Shown here one piece after another: positions 23,126 through 43,280 of a DNA stretch of 64,000 nucleotides. A program made the translations under genes and the position numbers. The DNA comes from Lutibacter oricola (GTDB lineage: Bacteria > Bacteroidota > Bacteroidia > Flavobacteriales > Flavobacteriaceae), in the NCBI RefSeq assembly GCF_900106565.1, contig NZ_FNNJ01000011.1, forward strand, positions 1-64,000. Direction: 5' to 3'. Under the pieces are notes generated by a model. It saw only the letters and a program-made list of their open reading frames with translations. It was not told where the DNA came from and did not search any database. Numbering within the stretch: position 1 is the first letter of the stretch; every line of letters starts with the position of its first letter.

Positions 23126-24229
23126 ATGAGATTTCTAACACTATTTTTAATAACAGTTACTTTTTTAAGTTCTTGTAAAGAACAGCCCAAAAAAACTGTA
23201 GAAATAAAAAAATCAGATTTTAAAGTTGAATTGGGAGAAGTTGCTAAATTCTCAAAATTTGAGAGTGATACAATGAGTATTTGGGGAGGATCTATTACAA
23301 AAGGTAATGATGGTTTGTATCATATGTTTTATTCTCGATGGAAAAAAGATTTAGGTTGGGTTTGGGATTCGCATTCTGAAATTGCACATGCAACTTCAAA
23401 ATCGCCTTTTGGACCTTTTAAACACAAAGATGTTGCCTTAGAAATTAGAGATTCAAAATTATGGGATGGTTTGTGTACGCATAACCCAACAGTACATAAG
23501 TTTGGCGACAAATACTACTTGTATTATATGGGAAATACTGGAGATGGAAAGATTTACAGTAAGCCAGGAAAAATAAAATTAAACCCTATTCATAGAAATA
23601 ATCAGCGAATTGGTGTAGCCGTTGCCGATAGTCCGAACGGACCGTGGAAACGCTTTGATAAACCCTTGGTTGATGTAAGTAAGGACAGCACAGCTATTGA
23701 TGCTTTGATGGTGAGCAATCCATCAATTACTAAAAGACCAGATGGTGGTTATTTAATGGTGTACAAGGCTGTTGGGAAAAAGAAAAAAGGAATTTGGGGA
23801 GGACCGGTGGTACATTGTGTAGCAACTTCTGAAAGTCCAACAGGACCGTTTGTTAAATATGGAAAACCAGTATTTTTAGCAGAAGGACATGATTTTCCTG
23901 CTGAAGATCCATTTATTTGGTATGAAGCTGGAAAATATAGAGCTATTTTAAAAGATATGCATGGAGCATTTACAGATGCTGGTCAGGCATTGGTTTTATT
24001 TGAATCTGAAGATGGCTTTGATTGGAAACTATCGAAAAATGCATTGGTTTCAAAATTAGAAATTAAGTGGGAAGATGGAGCAGTGCAGAAAGTAGCCCAT
24101 TTAGAACGACCTCAAGTTTATTTAGAAAACGGAATTCCTAAAGTTCTTGTATGTGCTTCAGATGTTAAAGATAGTGCTGGTGTTCTTCAATCCTTTAATG
24201 TTCAAATTCCAATTAAAACTAAACAATAA
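23126..24229 (+). CDS. Uncharacterised GH43/GH117-like beta-propeller lipoprotein, copy 1
   Basis: A 367-residue lipoprotein (signal LSSC). It is built of repeating propeller blades with motifs such as DGLYHMFYSRW, KYYLYYMGN, GVAVADSPNGPWKRF and KYRAILKD. Conserved points shared with the gene at 29184 are SIWGGS (Trp53), CTHNP or ATHNP (His119-Asn120-Pro121), FPAEDP (Glu260, Asp261) and LERPQ (Glu327). It looks like the five-bladed clan that includes GH43, GH62, GH117 and GH130, but the usual blade-one Asp-Pro is not obvious. Probably an exo-glycosidase for an anhydro- or sulfated galactose; that is inferred. The next gene overlaps its stop by one base. Confidence 0.7.
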   Translation: MRFLTLFLITVTFLSSCKEQPKKTVEIKKSDFKVELGEVAKFSKFESDTMSIWGGSITKGNDGLYHMFYSRWKKDLGWVWDSHSEIAHATSKSPFGPFKHKDVALEIRDSKLWDGLCTHNPTVHKFGDKYYLYYMGNTGDGKIYSKPGKIKLNPIHRNNQRIGVAVADSPNGPWKRFDKPLVDVSKDSTAIDALMVSNPSITKRPDGGYLMVYKAVGKKKKGIWGGPVVHCVATSESPTGPFVKYGKPVFLAEGHDFPAEDPFIWYEAGKYRAILKDMHGAFTDAGQALVLFESEDGFDWKLSKNALVSKLEIKWEDGAVQKVAHLERPQVYLENGIPKVLVCASDVKDSAGVLQSFNVQIPIKTKQ

Positions 24230-25284
24230 TGAAAAATTCTATAAAAATATTGATTGCTTTTTTAAGTATTTGGCAAGTTTCCAATGCTCAAACACCACAG
24301 CAACTTTCTGAAAATGGAAATCAGTATGAAACTTATAGAGATAATAGTATTTCAGATGAATTTAATAGTAAAAAATTGAATACTAATAAATGGGGAAGAA
24401 GAAATACAGGAGGAGCTTCAATAGAAAATTATGTTGCAGACAAATCTTTGGTTGTAATGGAAAAGGAAACTAATAAAGGTGTAACAACCAATTTTGTTTC
24501 AATAAAAGCAACTACGGAAAAAGGATCCCCAAAAACAGCTGGTTTAGTTAGTAATGCGTCAGCTTTTTATGGGTTTTATACAGTGAAATTTAGATTTAGA
24601 GGTTTTGATACTGAAGATGTAAAAGAGAAAGGTTCAGTTTGGCATCCAGCAGTTTGGTGTGCTATAAATAATAATACTGATGGAGTAAAAAGGAGCTCAA
24701 TAAAAAACAAAGATTTTTGGACAGAAATTGATTTTATGGAGTGGGAAAATGGAGCAAATGGTTGGAGCAGTGATGCACCCGCAAGATTAAAAGATAGTAA
24801 AGGTGTAAAGCGAAAAGTGATAACTAAAGGAAAAGGTGCTGAAAAAGCAATTATGACAAAAGGTCCTTTTCAAACTTATAATCCTGTTTGGCAAACCGTA
24901 GGTTTAGAGTATACACCTGAATATATAAAACTGTGGGAATGGAAAAATGGAGAATGGGTACATATGGGGAAAAGAGTTGTAAAATTTGTAGATGAAGATG
25001 AATCAAATCCAGAAAGCAAATACACTATTAGTACTATTGGAAAGAATGCTAGAAAACCTGCGTTTTGGTTATTAGGAAACATTGTAGCCAGGTATGTGCT
25101 TGCTAAAGTTGAAGATGGAACAAATACGCATACTATAAATGATTTGTCTGTAGATTTTGATTTCTTTAGGTATTACCGCCATAAAAGTACTAGAGATATT
25201 GATTGGAATTGGGAAAATGGAGTAAAACAAGGAGGAGGAAAAATTAAGAAAGATTTTTCTCCAATTCAAACTATAAAAAAATAA
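24229..25284 (+). CDS. GH16-like endo-hydrolase
   Basis: A 351-residue secreted protein (signal peptide ending SNAQ). GH16 signs are ISDEFNSKKLNTNKWGRR near residue 41, the catalytic EIDFME (Glu166, Asp168, Glu171) and WQTVGLEYTPEYIKLWEW near 222. The C-terminal tail after the last strand carries a Trp-rich, Lys-rich extension (DIDWNWENG). It differs strongly from the other two GH16 proteins in the window, so it probably cuts a different bond or sulfation pattern. The ATG uses the last A of the preceding stop codon, a one-base overlap, so it should be translated with copy 1 of the propeller family. Confidence 0.8.
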   Translation: MKNSIKILIAFLSIWQVSNAQTPQQLSENGNQYETYRDNSISDEFNSKKLNTNKWGRRNTGGASIENYVADKSLVVMEKETNKGVTTNFVSIKATTEKGSPKTAGLVSNASAFYGFYTVKFRFRGFDTEDVKEKGSVWHPAVWCAINNNTDGVKRSSIKNKDFWTEIDFMEWENGANGWSSDAPARLKDSKGVKRKVITKGKGAEKAIMTKGPFQTYNPVWQTVGLEYTPEYIKLWEWKNGEWVHMGKRVVKFVDEDESNPESKYTISTIGKNARKPAFWLLGNIVARYVLAKVEDGTNTHTINDLSVDFDFFRYYRHKSTRDIDWNWENGVKQGGGKIKKDFSPIQTIKK

Positions 25285-25290
25285 TAAATT

Positions 25291-27591
25291 ATGAATCTTA
25301 AAAGTAGTGTAATTTCTGTTTTTTCATTTTTTGTAACCTTTATTGGTTTTGCACAAGCAGATTTCGATTTTAAAGAGTTGCTTCCTGAAAAATTTAATAA
25401 AGAAAATATTATTGAAGAAGAAGACTATAATGTTTGGGGAACAAATATTTTAAAAGGAAAAGATGGTAAATACCACGCAATTTATTCACGTTGGTTAAAA
25501 TCTAGAGGGCATTTAGGTTGGGTTACACATTCTGAAATAGCACACGCCGTTTCCGATAATTTAACGGGTCCTTATAAATTTAAAAATTTAGTATTGCCGC
25601 CTAGAGGTAAAAAATATTGGGATGGTGATTGTACTCATAATCCTCACGTATTGGAGCACAATGGGAAGTATTATTTATACCATATGGGAAACAAAGGAAG
25701 TGGTTTTTGGGATAAAACTGCAGACTCAGTTATGCCAAAATATACAGATAAAGAATGGTGGATAAATAGAAATAATCAACGCGTTGGATTAGCTGTAGCT
25801 GACGATTTAAATGGTGAATGGCAACGTTTTGATAAACCATTAATTGATGTTACAGGAGATAGAATGATGACTTCAACTCCAACTATTTCAAAACGTACTG
25901 ATGGTAAGTTTTTGTTAGCATATAAATATGTAGAACCAAACGAAAAATTTAAAAATGGAAAGGTTGTTCACGTAACTTCTCTTTCTAATTCACCAATGGG
26001 ACCTTTTGTAGATACGGGAGTTCCTTTTATTACGCACCCAACAGCAAGTTTTGCAATAGATGATCATTTAGAATGGGTTTACAACGGAAATTACTATTGC
26101 ATTGCAAAAGATTCACGTGGTGCTTGGAGTGATTATCCTAATGGTTCAACAATGTTGTTTGAAGGTGATGATTTGGGATTAAAGTGGAAACCAGCCAAAA
26201 ACTTTTTAGTTTTAAAAGCAGGTGAAATTAAATGGACAGATGGTACTACTACAAAAACAGCACGTACTGCGGATATGCCTAAGTTCTATATGGAAAATGG
26301 AATTCCAAAAGCATTAATTATAGCCATTTTACCAAAAGACAGTGAAATATCATATTCATTAGTTATACCTTTAAAAACTCCAAAACCAAGTACAGATGTC
26401 TTTCCTTATCAGGTAACTGAATATTCTAAAGAACGTAAATTAAGTGCTGCTTTGAATAGAAGTTTTAATCAATATCCATCGCATGTAAATGCTGAAAATG
26501 AGTTGTATAGTCAGTTTAAATACACAAAACTTACTGGGTTCGATTATAATGATGGAGATGCAACTATTACGCGTAGAGATCCTTCAAAAATAATTAAAGA
26601 AAATGGAAAATATTATGTTTGGTATACCAAGCGAGATACTAAAACTCCACCAGTTGGAGCTAGAAATGCACATTTAGCAACGGATAAAATTCCTTCTACA
26701 GACTGGGATTTAGCTGAAATTTGGTATGCTACAAGTAAAGATGGTTTTCATTGGGAAGAACAAAGAGTTGCTGTTAAACGTCCTCCATATCCAACTCCAG
26801 GTTGGAGAGCAGTAGCAACTCCAGATGTATTAAAATTTAAAGGGAAATATTATATCTATTATCAGGCTTTTACAGAGGCAAGTGGTAAACGAGGAGATTA
26901 TTGTCCTGTTAGTGTAGCGTTTTCAGATTCACCTGATGGACCTTGGACGCACGTTAATAAAGCCGTAATTCCTACTGGAGCAAAAGGAGAATGGGATCAA
27001 TTTGCGATACAAGCTCCAACACCTTTGGTTCATAACGGAAAAATATATGTGTATTATAAAGCAGCCTTTAATCGTCCAGGAACTGTTTGGAGTGGAATAG
27101 GATTAGCAATAGCAGATGATCCGTTAGGACCGTTTAAGAAACACGAATTAAATCCAGTTCAGAATTCAGGTCACGAAATTTGTTTTTTTCCTTGGAAAGA
27201 AGGCTTGGCTTCAATGACAATTCGTGATGGATCTGAGCACTTTACAATTCAATATGCTAAAGACTGGGTTAATTTTGAAATTATGTCTATAACTGAAATG
27301 ATGCCAATTGGTCCAAATGCTTATATACCAGATGCCTTTTTAGATAATAAAAACGGACGAGGAATTACTTGGGGAATTGGTCACTTTATTAATTTTAAAG
27401 GGAAAAATAGTGATAAATGGCATTCAGAATTATATAGATTTGACTGTGATTTAAGTCTTGATGTTGATGATCCTGAAATGAAGCATCACAATAATAGATG
27501 GAATCCTGAAGATTATTTTCGTTGGGGACTGAGTGAAAAACAAATTGAAAGAATTCAAGAAGAAAACAATAAAACGGATAGCAAAAATTAA
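25291..27591 (+). CDS. Fusion of propeller-family domain and GH117 domain
   Basis: A 766-residue secreted protein (signal ending GFAQ). Residues about 45-365 match the propellers at 23126 and 29184 (VWGTN, CTHNP, NNQRVGLAVADD). However, the AEDP and ERPQ motifs read IDDH and DMPK. Residues about 380-760 form a GH117 domain. It has the SxAxxR dimerisation motif starting at Ser385 (SAALNR), RRDPS with Asp430 and SGHE (His628, Glu629). The HDP motif of the other GH117 proteins reads QAP here (Ala575 in place of Asp). It may combine two exo-activities or act partly as a binding protein. Spacing to neighbours is 6 and 9 bases. Confidence 0.8.
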   Translation: MNLKSSVISVFSFFVTFIGFAQADFDFKELLPEKFNKENIIEEEDYNVWGTNILKGKDGKYHAIYSRWLKSRGHLGWVTHSEIAHAVSDNLTGPYKFKNLVLPPRGKKYWDGDCTHNPHVLEHNGKYYLYHMGNKGSGFWDKTADSVMPKYTDKEWWINRNNQRVGLAVADDLNGEWQRFDKPLIDVTGDRMMTSTPTISKRTDGKFLLAYKYVEPNEKFKNGKVVHVTSLSNSPMGPFVDTGVPFITHPTASFAIDDHLEWVYNGNYYCIAKDSRGAWSDYPNGSTMLFEGDDLGLKWKPAKNFLVLKAGEIKWTDGTTTKTARTADMPKFYMENGIPKALIIAILPKDSEISYSLVIPLKTPKPSTDVFPYQVTEYSKERKLSAALNRSFNQYPSHVNAENELYSQFKYTKLTGFDYNDGDATITRRDPSKIIKENGKYYVWYTKRDTKTPPVGARNAHLATDKIPSTDWDLAEIWYATSKDGFHWEEQRVAVKRPPYPTPGWRAVATPDVLKFKGKYYIYYQAFTEASGKRGDYCPVSVAFSDSPDGPWTHVNKAVIPTGAKGEWDQFAIQAPTPLVHNGKIYVYYKAAFNRPGTVWSGIGLAIADDPLGPFKKHELNPVQNSGHEICFFPWKEGLASMTIRDGSEHFTIQYAKDWVNFEIMSITEMMPIGPNAYIPDAFLDNKNGRGITWGIGHFINFKGKNSDKWHSELYRFDCDLSLDVDDPEMKHHNNRWNPEDYFRWGLSEKQIERIQEENNKTDSKN

Positions 27592-29183: not shown

Positions 29184-30305
29184 ATGAAATATTTAGCAAC
29201 ACTAGTATTAGCAGTATTCGTATTAGTTTCTTGTGGAGAGAAACCTAAAAAAACGGTTGAAAAAGAAGTTCCTCAAAAGGAAATTGATTTTAAAATTGAG
29301 TTTGGAAAAGTATCTCCAAAGTCTGTATTTAGTGGAGGAGATTCTATAAGTATTTGGGGAGGTTCAGTAGTAAAAGGAGAAGATGGTTTGTACCATATGT
29401 TATATGCACGTTGGCCAAAAAAAATAGGTTGGGAATGGGTAAACTATTCTGAAGTTGCACACGCTACATCAAAATCACCTTTCGGACCATTTAAACATGT
29501 GGATATTGCTTTAGACGAACGAGGAGAAAAATTTTGGGATGGTTCGGCAACCCACAATCCAACAGTTCATAAAATGAACGGAAAATATTACCTGTATTAT
29601 ATGGGTAATTTTGGAGATAAAAAAATTGTAAGTGTTCCTGGAAAGGCTAAAATAAATTGGATGCACCGTAACAATCAGCGCATTGGAGTTGCAGTTGCAG
29701 ATTCTCCAAACGGACCTTGGAAACGATTCGACAAGCCAGTTTTAGACATTACATATAATAATGAGGATGCTCCTGATGCTTTAATGACTTCAAACCCGTC
29801 TGTTTGTCAAATGACTGATGGTAGAGTTTTAATGGTGTACAAAGCGGTAGGTAAAAAATTTCCATTACCTCAAGGAGGTCCAGTTGTTCATATGGTTGCA
29901 ATTGCTGATAGCCCAACAGGTCCGTTTGTAAAGCAAGAAAAATTAGCTTTTGAAATTAAAGGAGAACGTTTTCCTGCTGAAGATCCATATATCTGGCATC
30001 AAGATGGGAAATACAGAGCTATTGTAAAAAGAATTAAGCATGTTGGCAAAAAGCGTGTATTCTCTTTAGTTCAATATGATTCAAAAGATGGATTGGATTG
30101 GAAACCATCAAAACACCACGAAATTTCGGATAGAATTGTTACTTGGGAAAATGGAAGAGAGCAACAGTTTACACATTTAGAACGTCCACAAGTTGTGGTT
30201 GAAAATGGAGAAGCAATTGCTTTAATGTGTGCAGCTGATACGTTAGTGAATAAAGTTAGAAATTCATTTAACATTCAAATTCCTTTAAAAGTTACTAAAG
30301 AATAA
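29184..30305 (+). CDS. Uncharacterised GH43/GH117-like beta-propeller lipoprotein, copy 2
   Basis: A 373-residue lipoprotein (signal LVSC) and the close paralogue of the protein at 23126. SIWGGS, DGLYHMLYARW, ATHNPTVH, HRNNQRIGVAVADSPNGPWKRFDKP, FPAEDP and LERPQ are all present and in the same order. The length differs by only six residues, so this is a recent-looking gene duplication within the locus. Function is not known to me. The conserved acidic motifs (AED, ER) suggest an active enzyme. It lies 20 bases after a sulfatase and nine bases before a GH2, consistent with one long operon. Confidence 0.7.
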   Translation: MKYLATLVLAVFVLVSCGEKPKKTVEKEVPQKEIDFKIEFGKVSPKSVFSGGDSISIWGGSVVKGEDGLYHMLYARWPKKIGWEWVNYSEVAHATSKSPFGPFKHVDIALDERGEKFWDGSATHNPTVHKMNGKYYLYYMGNFGDKKIVSVPGKAKINWMHRNNQRIGVAVADSPNGPWKRFDKPVLDITYNNEDAPDALMTSNPSVCQMTDGRVLMVYKAVGKKFPLPQGGPVVHMVAIADSPTGPFVKQEKLAFEIKGERFPAEDPYIWHQDGKYRAIVKRIKHVGKKRVFSLVQYDSKDGLDWKPSKHHEISDRIVTWENGREQQFTHLERPQVVVENGEAIALMCAADTLVNKVRNSFNIQIPLKVTKE

Positions 30306-32055: not shown

Positions 32056-33312
32056 ATGAAAACCATTTTACCATATATAGCAACTGTTTTATTAATTGTA
32101 ATAGCATCTTGTTCCAATGAAAAAAACACAGAGAAAAAAGAGATTAAACCATTTCCGTATACTGTAACAGAGGAAACTGCAAATATTGAAATGAGTGCTG
32201 CAATGAAGCGTAGCTTCAATAATTATAGTGCCATTCACCCAGCAGATAATGAGTTGTACACCAAATTTAAATACACAAAACTAAAAGGTTTTGATTACAA
32301 CAATCATGACGGAACAGTAAGTAGAAGAGATCCTTCAAAAGTAATTTTTGAAAATGGGAAATATTATGTGTGGTACACCTATCGTAATACTCCAACTATT
32401 CCAATGGGACCTAAAAAATGTAACGATACTATCCCTTCTACAGATTGGGATTTAGCTGAAATTTGGTATGCTACTAGTAAAGATGGTTTAACTTGGGAAG
32501 AACAAGGAGTTGCTGTACCAAGACCACCTAAACCTAATGTAGGTTGGAGAGCTGTTGCAACTACTGATATTTTAAAATGGAAAGGCAAGTATTATTTATA
32601 CTATCAAGGTTTTATGGAAGCTAGTGGTAAAAAAGGAGATTATTGCCCTGTTGCAGTTTCATATGCAGATTCACCAGATGGTCCTTGGACTCCAACAAAT
32701 GAAATTGTGATTCCTACTGGTCCAAAAGGAGCTTGGGATCAATACGCAATTCACGATCCTTATCCAATTGTTCATGATGGAAAAATATATTTATATTATA
32801 AATCGGCATTCAACAGGCCTGGTAATGTTTGGGTAGCTGGTGGTTTAGCCATTGCCGATAATCCTTTAGGGCCATTCACAAAATATGAACTGAATCCTGT
32901 ATTAAATTCAGGACATGAATTAACATTGTTTCCTTTTAAAGAAGGTGTAGCTGCTATTGTTGCCAAAGATGGAAACGAGCATTTTACCATTCAATATGCC
33001 AAAGATTGGGTAAATTTTGAAATTGCTTCAATTTTATCATTGGTTCCTGCTGCATCGGCTCCTTATGTACCTGATGCATTTACGGATACCAAAGATGGAC
33101 AAGGAATTTCTTGGGGATTATGTCATTTTATAAATGCAGGAAAACCAAAAGTGAATCCACATTCCATTTTAGCTAGATTTGATTGTGATTTAAGTAGAAC
33201 TATTGATGACCACGAAATGAAAGAAACCAGAACTCATTACGATATGGATCATTATTTTAAACAAGGTTTAAGTAAAAAACAAAAGGAGCGAATTTTTAAT
33301 ACAAGTAAATAG
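32056..33312 (+). CDS. GH117 3,6-anhydro-alpha-L-galactosidase-type, lipoprotein
   Basis: A 418-residue lipoprotein (signal IASC). The N-terminal helix pair has the SxAxxR motif (SAAMKR) known for dimer formation in GH117. The five-bladed propeller follows, with RRDPS (Asp92), IHDPYP (Asp234) and SGHE (His287, Glu288) as the probable active-site set. GH117 enzymes release 3,6-anhydro-L-galactose from the non-reducing end of neoagaro-oligosaccharides, although not every clade has that activity. It is one of two GH117 genes in tandem, 20 bases after the GH2, so the pair would cut alternating linkages of an agar-like oligosaccharide. Confidence 0.9.
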   Translation: MKTILPYIATVLLIVIASCSNEKNTEKKEIKPFPYTVTEETANIEMSAAMKRSFNNYSAIHPADNELYTKFKYTKLKGFDYNNHDGTVSRRDPSKVIFENGKYYVWYTYRNTPTIPMGPKKCNDTIPSTDWDLAEIWYATSKDGLTWEEQGVAVPRPPKPNVGWRAVATTDILKWKGKYYLYYQGFMEASGKKGDYCPVAVSYADSPDGPWTPTNEIVIPTGPKGAWDQYAIHDPYPIVHDGKIYLYYKSAFNRPGNVWVAGGLAIADNPLGPFTKYELNPVLNSGHELTLFPFKEGVAAIVAKDGNEHFTIQYAKDWVNFEIASILSLVPAASAPYVPDAFTDTKDGQGISWGLCHFINAGKPKVNPHSILARFDCDLSRTIDDHEMKETRTHYDMDHYFKQGLSKKQKERIFNTSK

Positions 33313-33355: not shown

Positions 33356-34651
33356 ATGAAAAGAATAAATAAACTTCAAAAAATAGGATTTCTTGTATTA
33401 GTTATTGGAACCCTTTTTTCTTGTTCAGAAAATAAAGTAAAATCAGAAGCTATTGATAAAAATGAAGCAAAGGCTAAAACAATGTTTCCTTTTAAAATGC
33501 CTTCTGAAAAGCCAAACATTGAAATGAGTACTGCTTCAGAAAGAATGTTTGAATATTCAACTCCAAGAGTGCAAGATAATGAGTTGTTTAGCCAGTTTAA
33601 ATATACACGTTTAAAGGGATTTGATTATAATAACGGTGATGGAACTATTTCAAGAAGAGATCCTTCACGACCAATTTTGGTTGATGGAACGTATTACATT
33701 TGGTATACAAAACGACATACAAAGGTACCGCCAATTGGATGGAATAGAGCAAAAGAAGCTACTGATGAAATCCCTTCAACAGATTGGGATTTATGTGATA
33801 TTTGGTATGCTACAAGTAAAGATGGAACAACTTGGGAAGAGCAAGGAGCGGCAGTTACAAGACCAGAAAAACCTAAATCTGGATGGCGTTCGGTTGCAAC
33901 ACCAGATATTTTGGTTTGGAAAGGTAAGTACTACTTATATTATCAAGCATTTGATGAACCAAGTGGATTAAGAGGAGATTTATGTCCAGTTTCTGTTTCA
34001 TATGCCGATTCTCCAAATGGACCTTGGACTCACGGAGGAGATAAAGTGATTCCTTTTGGAAAAGAGACTGATTGGGATAGAAATGCAACACACGATCCGC
34101 ATCCAATTGTTTACAAAGGAAAAATTTATATTTATTATAAAGCTGCATATAACAAATGGCCAGATAACAGAAATAATTATGCTGTTGGGCACGGATTGGC
34201 AATTGGTGAAGATCCATTAGGTCCATTTAAAAAACATCCATTAAATCCAGTTATGCAATCTGGACACGAAACTACTTATTGGCCTTTTAAAGGTGGTATT
34301 GCCACTTTAGCAATTAAAGATGGTAATGAACGTGAAACTATTCAATATTCTGAAGATGGTGTTAATTTTAAAATTGCTTCAGCAGTTTCATTAACTCCAA
34401 CGGCGGCGGCACCATTTGTTGCAGATGCTTTTACAAATACAACTGATGGAAGAGGTTTTACTTGGGGATTATGTCATTTTGTAAATGCAGGAAAACCTAA
34501 AAAAGGATATTCTATAATGGCTCGTTTTGATTGTGATTTAAGCCTAGATTATAACGAACCAATGTTGAAAAAAACAGGTGTATGGCATAGACCAGAGGTT
34601 TATTTTGCACAAGGAATGGGAAGTATAGGAAAAAATCCTGAAGGTAGATAG
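33356..34651 (+). CDS. GH117 family glycosidase, second tandem copy, lipoprotein
   Basis: A 431-residue lipoprotein (signal LFSC). SxAxxR reads STASER, followed by RRDPS (Asp102), THDPHP (Asp247) and SGHE (His304, Glu305), so all probable active-site residues are kept. Sequence loops around KRHTKVPPIGWNRAKE and YNKWPDNRNNYAVGHG differ from the neighbour at 32056, suggesting a different acceptor site or sulfation preference. It sits 43 bases after that paralogue and 26 bases before a sulfatase. Confidence 0.88.
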   Translation: MKRINKLQKIGFLVLVIGTLFSCSENKVKSEAIDKNEAKAKTMFPFKMPSEKPNIEMSTASERMFEYSTPRVQDNELFSQFKYTRLKGFDYNNGDGTISRRDPSRPILVDGTYYIWYTKRHTKVPPIGWNRAKEATDEIPSTDWDLCDIWYATSKDGTTWEEQGAAVTRPEKPKSGWRSVATPDILVWKGKYYLYYQAFDEPSGLRGDLCPVSVSYADSPNGPWTHGGDKVIPFGKETDWDRNATHDPHPIVYKGKIYIYYKAAYNKWPDNRNNYAVGHGLAIGEDPLGPFKKHPLNPVMQSGHETTYWPFKGGIATLAIKDGNERETIQYSEDGVNFKIASAVSLTPTAAAPFVADAFTNTTDGRGFTWGLCHFVNAGKPKKGYSIMARFDCDLSLDYNEPMLKKTGVWHRPEVYFAQGMGSIGKNPEGR

Positions 34652-40759: not shown

Positions 40760-42037
40760 ATGAAAGTTTTAAAATTTACATTATACAGTTTTGCTATTAT
40801 TCTTTTAGCAGCTTGTTCAAATTCTCAAAACCAAAAAGAAGAGGTTAAATTAAAAGAAGGAAATTTTCCCTATAAATTTCCAAATGAAAAACCGAATATT
40901 AAAATAAGTTCGGCAATGGAGCGTAATTATGATAATTATATGGCACCTCGCCCTCAAGATAATGAATTGTATTCTCAATTTAAATATACCAAATTAAAAG
41001 GGTTAGATTATAGTAATCATGATGGTACAATTACGCGTAGAGATCCTTCAAAAGTAATTTTTGCAAATGGTAAATATTATGTATGGTACACACATAGAAA
41101 AACTCCAACACCGCCACAAGGAGCAAAAAAATGTACAGATGTAATTCCTTCAAGCGATTGGGATTTATGTGATATATACTATGCAACAAGTAAAGATGGA
41201 TTTACTTGGGAAGAACAAGGAGTTGCAGTACCAAGACCAGAAAAACCAAATGTAGGTTGGAGATCTGTAGCTACTACTGATATTTTGGAGTGGAAAGGTA
41301 AATACTATTTATACTACCAAGGGTTTATGGAAGCAAGTGGAAAACGTGGAGATGATTGCCCTGTAGCAGTTTCATATGCAGATTCACCTGACGGACCTTG
41401 GACACCTTATAATAAAATTGTAATTCCTAATGGAGCAGAAGGCGAGTGGGATCAATACTCTATTCACGATCCATACCCAATGGTTTATAAAGGAAAAATA
41501 TATTTGTATTATAAATCAGATTCTAATGGACAGCCAAATTTAATTAGAATGCAAGGATTGGCAACTGCCGATAATCCTTTAGGGCCATTTACAAAACATC
41601 CTCAAAATCCTATTATAAATTCAGGGCACGAAACAACATTGTTTCCTTTTAAAGGAGGTATTGCTGCGTTGGTTATTAGAGATGGAAACGAGCACAATAC
41701 CGTGCAATATTCTGAAGATGGTGTAAACTTTAACATTGCTTCAATTACAACAGATATGCCAAATGCAGGTGGGCCTTTTATTCCTGATGCTTTTACTGAT
41801 ACAAAAGACGGAAGAGGAATTACTTGGGGAATTTCGCATTTTACAGCTGTAAACGGTTGGTCAACTAATCATGCAGTTTTAACACGTTTTGATTGTGATT
41901 TAAGTTTAGATGTAAATGATCCGGATATGAAAAAGACACATGTATACCATAAACCAGAATATTATTATAAAATGGGGTTGAATGGTAAACAAAGAAAAAG
42001 AATTGCAGAAGAAAATAAAGCTTTAAATAACCAATAA
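40760..42037 (+). CDS. GH117 family glycosidase, lipoprotein
   Basis: A 425-residue lipoprotein (signal LAAC). SxAxxR reads SSAMER, and RRDPS (Asp95), IHDPYP (Asp237) and SGHE (His290, Glu291) are all kept with the same spacing as in the copy at 32056 (142 and 54 residues). It should release 3,6-anhydro-L-galactose or a close relative from oligosaccharide ends. It opens a three-gene unit with GH16 one base downstream and GH3 after that, a compact endo-plus-exo set. Confidence 0.9.
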   Translation: MKVLKFTLYSFAIILLAACSNSQNQKEEVKLKEGNFPYKFPNEKPNIKISSAMERNYDNYMAPRPQDNELYSQFKYTKLKGLDYSNHDGTITRRDPSKVIFANGKYYVWYTHRKTPTPPQGAKKCTDVIPSSDWDLCDIYYATSKDGFTWEEQGVAVPRPEKPNVGWRSVATTDILEWKGKYYLYYQGFMEASGKRGDDCPVAVSYADSPDGPWTPYNKIVIPNGAEGEWDQYSIHDPYPMVYKGKIYLYYKSDSNGQPNLIRMQGLATADNPLGPFTKHPQNPIINSGHETTLFPFKGGIAALVIRDGNEHNTVQYSEDGVNFNIASITTDMPNAGGPFIPDAFTDTKDGRGITWGISHFTAVNGWSTNHAVLTRFDCDLSLDVNDPDMKKTHVYHKPEYYYKMGLNGKQRKRIAEENKALNNQ

Positions 42038-42038
42038 A

Positions 42039-43280
42039 ATGTATAAAAAGTTAATAATTCTTTTAGTTGTTTCATTAATAACTTCAGTTTTAAGAGCCGA
42101 TCCGCCAGATCCACCAGTTGGAAAAAGATGGGTTTTAAATGCTAAGTTTTCTGATGAATTTAACGGAAACAAATTAGATGCTACAAAATGGTATGATTAT
42201 CACCCAAATTGGAGTGGTAGAGAGCCTGGTATATTTTTACCTTCACAAGTAAAAGTTGGAAATGGATATATGTCTATTACTGGAAAAAAATTAGAGAAAG
42301 ATTCTATTCAAATTAGAAAAGATGGAACTAAGAAAATTTTTAACATAGCAGGTGGAGCCGTGGTTTCAAAAACTACAGATGCTTATTTTGGATATTATGA
42401 GTGTAAATTTAAGGCAGCCAAAACAACTATGTCTACAACTTTTTGGATGTCTACCAGAGGAAGTACAGATGGACCAACAGATTGTGAAAGTGATAAATAC
42501 GGATTGGAGTTAGATTTTCAGGAATGTATTGGTAGAGAAGGTGATTTTGATGGTAAATATTTTGCTCGTGGAATGAATTCTAATTCGCATTATTGGTATA
42601 CAGATTGTGAAGGAAAACGACACGATTATCGTGCACCACAATCTAAAATTGAAACCAAAACAATGCCTTCCGAAGATTTTTATACTTATGGAGGTTGGTG
42701 GCACAACGAAAGTAAAGTGAGTTATTTTTTAAATGATAGAAAGGTTAAAACGGTTGATTTTTATGATGAAATTACTAAAAAGCCTTTTGATAAAACAATG
42801 GGATTAAATATGGTTTCGGAAACCTATCCTTTTCCTTGGATTAAATTACCAAATGATGAAGAATTAGCTGATCCAACAAAAAACACGTGCTATTACGATT
42901 GGGTACGAGTTTATGATTTAGTTGATATAGACGAGAAAGTTAAAAATAATGCAACAGAGAATTTAACCATTTTTAATGATAGAGTATACTTCAACAATAA
43001 GCTATCTAAAATTTCTTCAAAAAATAATATAGATGTAAGCTACTCATATATGTCTAATGTAGACAGAGAAGTTTTAATTAAATTATTTGATGAAAATAAA
43101 AAGCCCGTTATTCAAACAAAACATACTGTATTTGCTGGCTTTGGAAATAGAGATTTGCAATTAAAGTTGAATAATAAATTAAAGAATAATAAAACATATG
43201 TTGCTAAAATTTTTGTTAAGCAACCTAATGGAAAAAAGAATATTGTAACAGATGAATTTAAGTTTGTTTACAAAAAGTAG
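42039..43280 (+). CDS. GH16 beta-agarase/beta-porphyranase-like enzyme
   Basis: A 413-residue secreted protein with a signal peptide to about residue 20. It opens DPPDPPVGKRWVLNAKFSDEFNG, a start typical of agarase and porphyranase GH16 proteins. The catalytic motif is ELDFQE (Glu157, Asp159, Glu162), and SNSHYWYTDCEG follows near 184. A C-terminal beta-sandwich module occupies about 310-413. It should cut internal beta-1,4 bonds of an agar- or porphyran-type chain. It starts one base after the GH117 stop. Of the three GH16 proteins this is the closest to textbook agarases; the exact subfamily needs a search. Confidence 0.85.
   Translation: MYKKLIILLVVSLITSVLRADPPDPPVGKRWVLNAKFSDEFNGNKLDATKWYDYHPNWSGREPGIFLPSQVKVGNGYMSITGKKLEKDSIQIRKDGTKKIFNIAGGAVVSKTTDAYFGYYECKFKAAKTTMSTTFWMSTRGSTDGPTDCESDKYGLELDFQECIGREGDFDGKYFARGMNSNSHYWYTDCEGKRHDYRAPQSKIETKTMPSEDFYTYGGWWHNESKVSYFLNDRKVKTVDFYDEITKKPFDKTMGLNMVSETYPFPWIKLPNDEELADPTKNTCYYDWVRVYDLVDIDEKVKNNATENLTIFNDRVYFNNKLSKISSKNNIDVSYSYMSNVDREVLIKLFDENKKPVIQTKHTVFAGFGNRDLQLKLNNKLKNNKTYVAKIFVKQPNGKKNIVTDEFKFVYKK

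Follow-up and report, generated by a model that had tools for sequence, protein, structure and literature searches.

Can a GH117 domain that has lost an aspartate kept by most of its family, and that is joined to a second propeller, still work as an enzyme? The question is raised by a gene of Lutibacter oricola lying within the 64,000 nucleotides analysed here (contig NZ_FNNJ01000011.1, positions 1 to 64,000; this whole stretch is called the window). The first-pass annotation had described its product as one secreted protein made of an uncharacterised propeller and a GH117 domain, both halves departing from conserved motifs, and had proposed either a non-catalytic glycan-binding or sensing protein or an enzyme with changed chemistry.

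Layout of the fusion protein

The reading frame was found to be open along its whole annotated length on the plus strand (Table 1), and comparison with solved structures gave a GH117 match over the full length from about residue 366 onward. The annotated motifs were also borne out. In the N-half, IDDH and DMPK stand where both propeller paralogues in the window read AEDP and ERPQ, and in the C-half QAP, with Ala575, stands where the three other GH117 proteins of the window read HDP, RRDPS and SGHE being intact. The readable starts of the other fusions end in AQ or GQ, and both stand-alone QAP proteins have an ASC lipobox; on sequence grounds, the fusion looks secreted and soluble. In the L. 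oricola genome, 15 matches of all kinds to the fusion protein were found at E <= 0.001, so that its relatives there outnumber those in the window.

Table 1. Coordinates of the fusion protein, its motifs and related genes in the window
Feature	Positions	Strand	Support or conservation
Fusion protein, 766 aa	25291..27591	+	Open frame; orthologous fusions in 11 other genomes, one with a broken frame
Probable type I signal peptide, residues 1-22, end FAQ, no clear lipobox	25291..25356	+	Read by eye
N-half, remote GH117/GH43-like propeller, DDH/DMPK subfamily	25354..26373	+	Profile comparison
IDDH motif, residues 256-259 (paralogues: AEDP)	26056..26067	+	
DMPK motif, residues 328-331 (paralogues: ERPQ)	26272..26283	+	
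C-half, GH117 domain	26386..27588	+	4u6d E 7e-154, 4u6b E 2e-149, 4ak7 E 1e-56
SxAxxR signature of GH117, SAALNR, residues 385-390	26443..26460	+	14/14 clade members
RRDPS; Asp430 = PpGH117 Asp90, general base	26572..26586	+	14/14; role from the available text of PMC11574756
QAP, residues 574-576; Gln574-Ala575 at PpGH117 His244-Asp245	27010..27018	+	Ala 13, Asp 1 of 14
SGHE; His628 = His302, Glu629 = Glu303	27166..27177	+	His and Glu in 103/103 GH117 domains
Asp646 = Asp320, partner of the acid His	27226..27228	+	14/14 clade members
Nprop1, stand-alone propeller paralogue (AEDP/ERPQ)	23126..24229	+	48% identity to N-half
Nprop2, stand-alone propeller paralogue (AEDP/ERPQ)	29184..30305	+	40% identity to N-half
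GH117a (HDP), group neighbouring the QAP clade	32056..33312	+	SH-aLRT 91, joint group
GH117b (HDP), branch of 4u6b	33356..34651	+	SH-aLRT 87
GH117c (HDP), branch of 4u6d	40760..42037	+	SH-aLRT 92
GH16, porphyranase-like; substrate context	42039..43280	+	4awd beta-porphyranase E 2e-50

Active site of the GH117 half

We mapped residues of the C-half onto PpGH117 through alignments to solved structures (chain numbers minus 2). Among the mapped active-site residues only His244 and Asp245 are replaced, and the eight others are fixed in all 14 members of the clade that carries QAP: the equivalents of Asp90, Thr165, Gln180, Lys260, His302, Glu303 and Asp320 are identical, and that of Glu167 is Asp. 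The position of His244 is occupied by Gln in 14/14 clade members, and that of Asp245 by Ala in 13 and by Asp in one. In the fusion, the acid dyad is His628-Asp646, and Glu629 and Lys590 are also kept (14/14). A family-wide alignment at Ala575 was run; of 103 GH117 domains, 91 have Asp at this position, 11 have Ala and one has Gly. Trp472 is likewise invariant in 14/14 and was excluded from the counts; the Trp128 named in the available text of PMC8152962 falls one residue off in our numbering of 4ak5. Motif calls based on BLAST misplaced very distant rows, including one 'EKP' that MAFFT did not give.

According to the available text of a QM/MM study of PpGH117, Asp90 acts as the base and His302 with Asp320 as the acid dyad, and the enzyme is inactivated by single mutation of Glu303, Asp90, Asp245, Glu167 or His302 (PMC11574756); a second report, in its available part, gives Asp245 a probable role in substrate coordination (PMC8152962). 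Because the published mechanism assigns the base and the acid to these other residues, the lost aspartate is neither. With the acid/base set kept and Gln-Ala at the substrate contact, the clade thus retains the proton-transfer machinery, and its substrate-contact wall is changed. The term 'non-catalytic' therefore does not follow from the motif change, and a change of chemistry or specificity is, for the C-half, the better supported of the two annotated readings, neither being proven.

On the blade-III wall of the -1 pocket, His-Asp-Pro-Tyr is replaced by Gln-Ala-Pro-Thr. In a comparison with 82 other GH117 rows that excluded nine distant ones, the clade-typical changes are Thr577 in place of Tyr/His (12/12), Ile630 and Cys631 (12/12 each) and Phe632 (11/12) next to the catalytic His-Glu, and Gly674-Pro675-Asn676 in the loop 674-676 (12/12). 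The -1 pocket of the QAP clade would accordingly differ from the ordinary one and, judged by residue type alone, is probably roomier. Since mutation of Asp245 inactivates PpGH117, a loss of activity on neoagarobiose is plausible for the fusion by analogy.

By descent the C-half is a GH117 domain, having the SxAxxR signature, the base and the acid site of the family and lacking HDP at the substrate site. It is homologous along its length to the 3,6-anhydro-alpha-L-galactosidase PpGH117/BpGH117 (4ak5-4ak7), with which SxAxxR is shared, but it has Gln-Ala for His244-Asp245 and Asp for Glu167, and the fusion adds an N-terminal propeller. Its closest solved relatives are the Zobellia galactanivorans GH117 proteins 4u6d and 4u6b, which we take to be Zg3615 and Zg3597; both lie in the same broad GH117 branch but are single-domain HDP proteins, from which the QAP clade is separate (SH-aLRT 100).

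The N-terminal propeller

The N-half is, by profile, a remote GH117-like propeller without the base and acid sites, and is not filed here as GH117. Its profile matched the GH117 profile over 238 columns (hhalign probability 99.4%, E 1.3e-21), its best PDB matches were the GH117 structures 4ak5-4ak7 (E about 4e-13), and by our reading of the alignment blades II and III of the two profiles are in register. The position equivalent to Asp245 is Thr196 in the N-half and Asn in the paralogues, and 52 of 53 N-type rows have Gly at the blade-I base position, the remaining row having a gap. A Gly-His-Asp ahead of AEDP in the Nprop1-type paralogues aligns with the SGHE of GH117. The fusion has Thr-Ala-Ser at this place, and the DDH subfamily has neither this stretch nor the Gly-Glu-Arg that can precede AEDP in paralogues. 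As Gly occupies the blade-I base position and no SGHE-like stretch is present, it is doubtful that the N-half is catalytic, and the usual mechanism is made less likely by the lack of the base and the His.

The fusion also matches the GH43 family PF04616 of Pfam, its best stretch falling in the C-half, and both stand-alone paralogues match it over about 76 residues with 46.0 and 48.0 bits against a gathering threshold of 32.2. The catalytic set of GH43 is Asp/Asp/Glu, and the blade-I Asp of this set is absent from the N-half. We rejected the idea that IDDH has lost a catalytic Asp, as the Asp of AEDP persists in the alignment (A-E-D-P versus I-D-D-H); both N-half motifs swap a Glu for an Asp, so that the acids are kept in kind.

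Residues fixed in the DDH clade and present in more than 90% of 32 AEDP rows include Asp58, His62, His116, Asp186, Lys212 and Asp258, and the run Arg160 to Arg164 (RNNQR) behaves likewise. Ten positions (119, 196, 241, 247, 257, 259, 270, 328, 329 and 331) are fixed differently in 16/16 DDH and 32/32 AEDP rows, a comparison in which 257 and 259 themselves served to sort the rows and five remoter rows were excluded. This is a pattern typical of changed specificity. Stand-alone GH43/GH117-like propellers annotated as 'glycoside hydrolase family protein' (e.g. WP_338399542.1) belong to the same family as the N-half; the Persicobacter psychrovividus protein itself reads LDDH/DMPK, and AEDP/ERPQ occurs in 32/53 N-type rows. 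Among the N-type propellers outside the DDH/DMPK clade, none was found fused to GH117.

Phylogeny of the two halves

Both trees were built with the motif columns removed; that of GH117 was made by a quick method with SH-aLRT and no bootstrap, and without the Persicobacter QAP protein and L154. In this tree of 103 GH117 domains, the QAP clade consists of 12 rows (11 QAP, one QDP) with an SH-aLRT of 100, and its stem is 0.48 changes per column long. The stand-alone QAP protein of Lutibacter citreus branches outside the fused ones with a support of only 83. Since the QDP protein of Pelagicoccus falls within the clade, the Asp was lost once and regained there, or was lost twice; a QDP group on another GH117 branch is distinct from it. 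HDP is the reading in all three solved GH117 sequences included in the tree and in 4ak5, and QAP was thus not found to be the norm of a GH117 clade known to be active. In the tree of 53 N-type domains, all 16 DDH rows fall together (SH-aLRT 100) with no row of another motif among them, and two stand-alone DDH copies are nested among fused ones, implying that domains were lost or split off. The annotated departure of both halves from conserved motifs therefore stands in comparison with the stand-alone families, but each of the two altered motif sets marks a well-supported clade.

Two further GH117 variants were seen in other genomes. Anaerolineae MAGs hold frames of about 832 aa with two tandem GH117 domains, both HDP (L049:5628-8123 and L050:5377-7875, minus strand), and a Pelagicoccus GH117 (L118:16392-17585, minus strand) reads HGP for HDP, another natural loss of the Asp.

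Fused and unfused relatives

A scan of species genomes with the fusion protein gave 19 loci. Including that of the window, 12 fusions were found, each half being 73-98% identical to the window's, in hosts from several Bacteroidota lineages, one Verrucomicrobiota isolate and one Calditrichaeota MAG (there on an 8.8 kb contig, so that mis-binning is possible). Apart from the window and the Calditrichaeota MAG, the hosts are an uncultured Lutibacter, Flavobacterium sp. UMI-01, Labilibacter marinus, Ochrovirga pacifica, Saccharicrinis aurantiacus, a Seonamhaeicola MAG, Reichenbachiella versicolor, a Draconibacterium MAG, the Verrucomicrobiota isolate Pelagicoccus mobilis and one further genome. 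These counts are a lower bound, the searches having used strict E-values and scored the best few candidates per genome. A pattern search of 395 genomes of the class matched only the window's own gene, and a search of 286 genomes of the class around Pelagicoccus gave no second fusion. A limited literature search turned up no published account of a propeller-GH117 fusion, which is no proof of absence.

QAP is present in 11 of the 12 fusions, Pelagicoccus having QDP, and in two stand-alone GH117s, from L. citreus and Persicobacter sp. JZB09; after each of these two genes the same order follows, with a GH117c-like, a distant GH2-like and a GH29-like gene. Given 12 fusions, and Ala575 in 13 of 14 clade GH117 domains, we rejected chance or a single-genome oddity as the source of the combination, and the stand-alone QAP proteins led us to reject an origin of QAP only through fusion. 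DDH/DMPK is found in all 12 fusions, DDH being preceded by Ile, Leu or Cys, and none of the 20 distinct N-domains with DDH (12 fused, eight alone) lacks DMPK; matches aligned over fewer than about 230 residues were excluded from these motif counts and identical frames counted once. The eight stand-alone propellers come from L. citreus (two) and, one each, from Seonamhaeicola algicola, the Draconibacterium MAG that also has a fusion, Persicobacter sp. JZB09, P. psychrovividus and two further genomes. In Persicobacter sp. JZB09, the DDH propeller and QAP GH117 genes lie on large plasmids 3 and 2 (L128 and L130).

A DDH/DMPK propeller accompanies the QAP-clade GH117 in every genome found to encode the latter (14/14; 12 fused, two as separate genes), a co-occurrence that is suggestive, in a sample biased by the use of the fusion as query to find all 14 genomes. 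The reverse fails, as S. algicola has a DDH propeller and no C-half match above 63% identity. Long open frames first taken for further N-GH117 fusions (G812, G038, G165) or an N-N fusion (G813) proved to be separate adjacent frames.

The Pelagicoccus fusion (L044:9977-12291) has a frame broken in the N-half near residue 118, possibly by a sequencing error, and among the 14 clade members Asp at 575 occurs in its C-half alone. P. mobilis also encodes a joined GH2b-like enzyme and AEDP-type propeller, a relative of Nprop1 (L118:3874-8106, minus strand; 1411 aa from stop to stop), suggesting that the two act on the same oligosaccharide and linking these propellers to galactan breakdown.

Selection and conservation

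Both halves are under purifying selection. Compared with the near relative L034, dN/dS was 0.056 in each half and 0.021-0.196 in nine neighbour genes, values from this one pair only, with dS saturated for most others. Among ten QAP fusions the codon for Ala575 is GCT, GCA, GCG or GCC; all four third bases thus occur, and Ala has been kept through synonymous turnover. In nine of ten named fusion loci, no gene shared with the window is better conserved than the fusion within 10 kb flanks; in L034, one GH117b is higher. Conservation across loci and the low dN/dS speak against decay. Because the fusion is nearly unchanged in distantly related seaweed-eating bacteria, an enzyme specialised for a modified sugar of red algae would be likelier than a decayed or dead one.

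Gene-cluster setting

Alongside two AEDP propellers and three HDP GH117s, the surrounding cluster contains GH2, GH3, GH16, GH29 and about ten sulfatases. Pfam scans covered ten proteins, and three GH16-type proteins were compared with the PDB; the names GH2, GH3, GH28, GH29 and DUF1080, and those of nine of ten sulfatases in the synteny table, are our own reading of the proteins. At 24229-25284 of the window lies a GH16-like secreted protein with, by our reading, an EIDxxE-type motif and relatives in several fusion loci; it had no match to a Pfam family at E 0.01 or to a PDB sequence at E 0.001. A single P450 match in another part of the genome gave no help on the substrate.

Possible functions

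Our leading reading, held tentatively and at slightly less than an even chance, is that the protein is secreted and serves in agar/porphyran utilisation as an exo-acting enzyme with two propellers, the -1 pocket of its GH117 half being altered. The C-half would use Asp430 as base and the His628-Asp646 dyad together with Glu629 and Lys590, and the remodelled blade-III wall would most likely serve to cleave a terminal unit of the alpha-L-galactose type not accepted by ordinary GH117; a substituted or non-anhydro unit within the agar-porphyran continuum would be one example. The N-half, as a specialised subfamily, would most likely bind or process the same or an adjacent residue of that oligosaccharide.

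The main rival, doubtful though a serious contender, is a non-catalytic glycan-binding or sensing protein in which the GH117 fold would act as a lectin-like capture domain and the N-half as a second binding site. It would agree with the inactivation of PpGH117 by mutation of Asp245 (available text of PMC11574756), with the lack of the base Asp throughout the N-half family (Gly in 52/53 rows, one gap) and with the secreted, soluble look of the fusion, but a pure binder has no obvious need for a base, an acid, an acid partner, Glu629 and Lys590 that are invariant in 14/14 members. Pfam, moreover, found no other domain in the fusion, and the Pelagicoccus copy has Asp at position 575.

Rather unlikely, in our estimate, is a bifunctional double-propeller glycosidase whose halves act in turn on one red-algal oligosaccharide. 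Here the Asp-less GH117 would cleave a modified alpha-L-galactose unit, and the N-half would found a glycosidase family without the blade-I base, with acids at Asp257/Asp258 and Asp328 on the fourth and fifth blades.

A division of labour in which the N-half alone works, the QAP GH117 being retained as a dimerising or binding module, seems quite unlikely. The N-half does occur alone (8/20 N-domains), in L. citreus as a 91% identical stand-alone protein encoded immediately ahead of the same sulfatase gene as in the window, with no C-half at that place, and SxAxxR is kept in the C-half. However, L. citreus and Persicobacter sp. JZB09 keep the QAP GH117 as a separate gene in another cluster, the C-half is under the same dN/dS constraint as the N-half, and it is the N-half that lacks the usual acid/base set.

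Very improbable is an ordinary 3,6-anhydro-alpha-L-galactosidase acting on neoagaro-oligosaccharides, with Ala575 tolerated in this background. The high overall similarity to 4u6d (E 7e-154) would suit such an enzyme, but Asp is kept at this position in 91/103 GH117 domains and, in the available text of PMC11574756, the PpGH117 mutant is inactive. Several other GH117 matches are also present in the 11 genomes that were searched whole, and outside the clade the GH117s read carry HDP or QDP, the exceptions being one HGP and three remote DDA rows. A degenerating gene or a sequencing or assembly artefact, as the broken N-half frame of Pelagicoccus might suggest, is hardly credible against the low dN/dS and the conservation in many separate assemblies.

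Zobellia genomes carry six to nine GH117 paralogues each, for which new specificities have been proposed (available text of PMC6950322). A precedent for GH117 paralogues with other substrates comes from Bacteroides uniformis NP1, in which a GH117A lies beside an active GH117B, the available text of PMC5849685 reporting that no GH117A activity was found on agarose.

The protein is a variant of a known family, in which a GH117 domain from a clade lacking Asp245 is coupled to a specialised propeller remotely like GH117. Agar-degrading genomes carry several GH117 paralogues, some of them, such as GH117A, without a known substrate (available text of PMC6950322 and PMC5849685). The QAP clade is a natural, strictly maintained counterpart of the mutation that kills the model enzyme PpGH117 in the available account, and can show the role of Asp245 and which sugar the altered pocket serves; its natural versions, with the N-half alone, the C-half alone and the two fused, permit a clean dissection.
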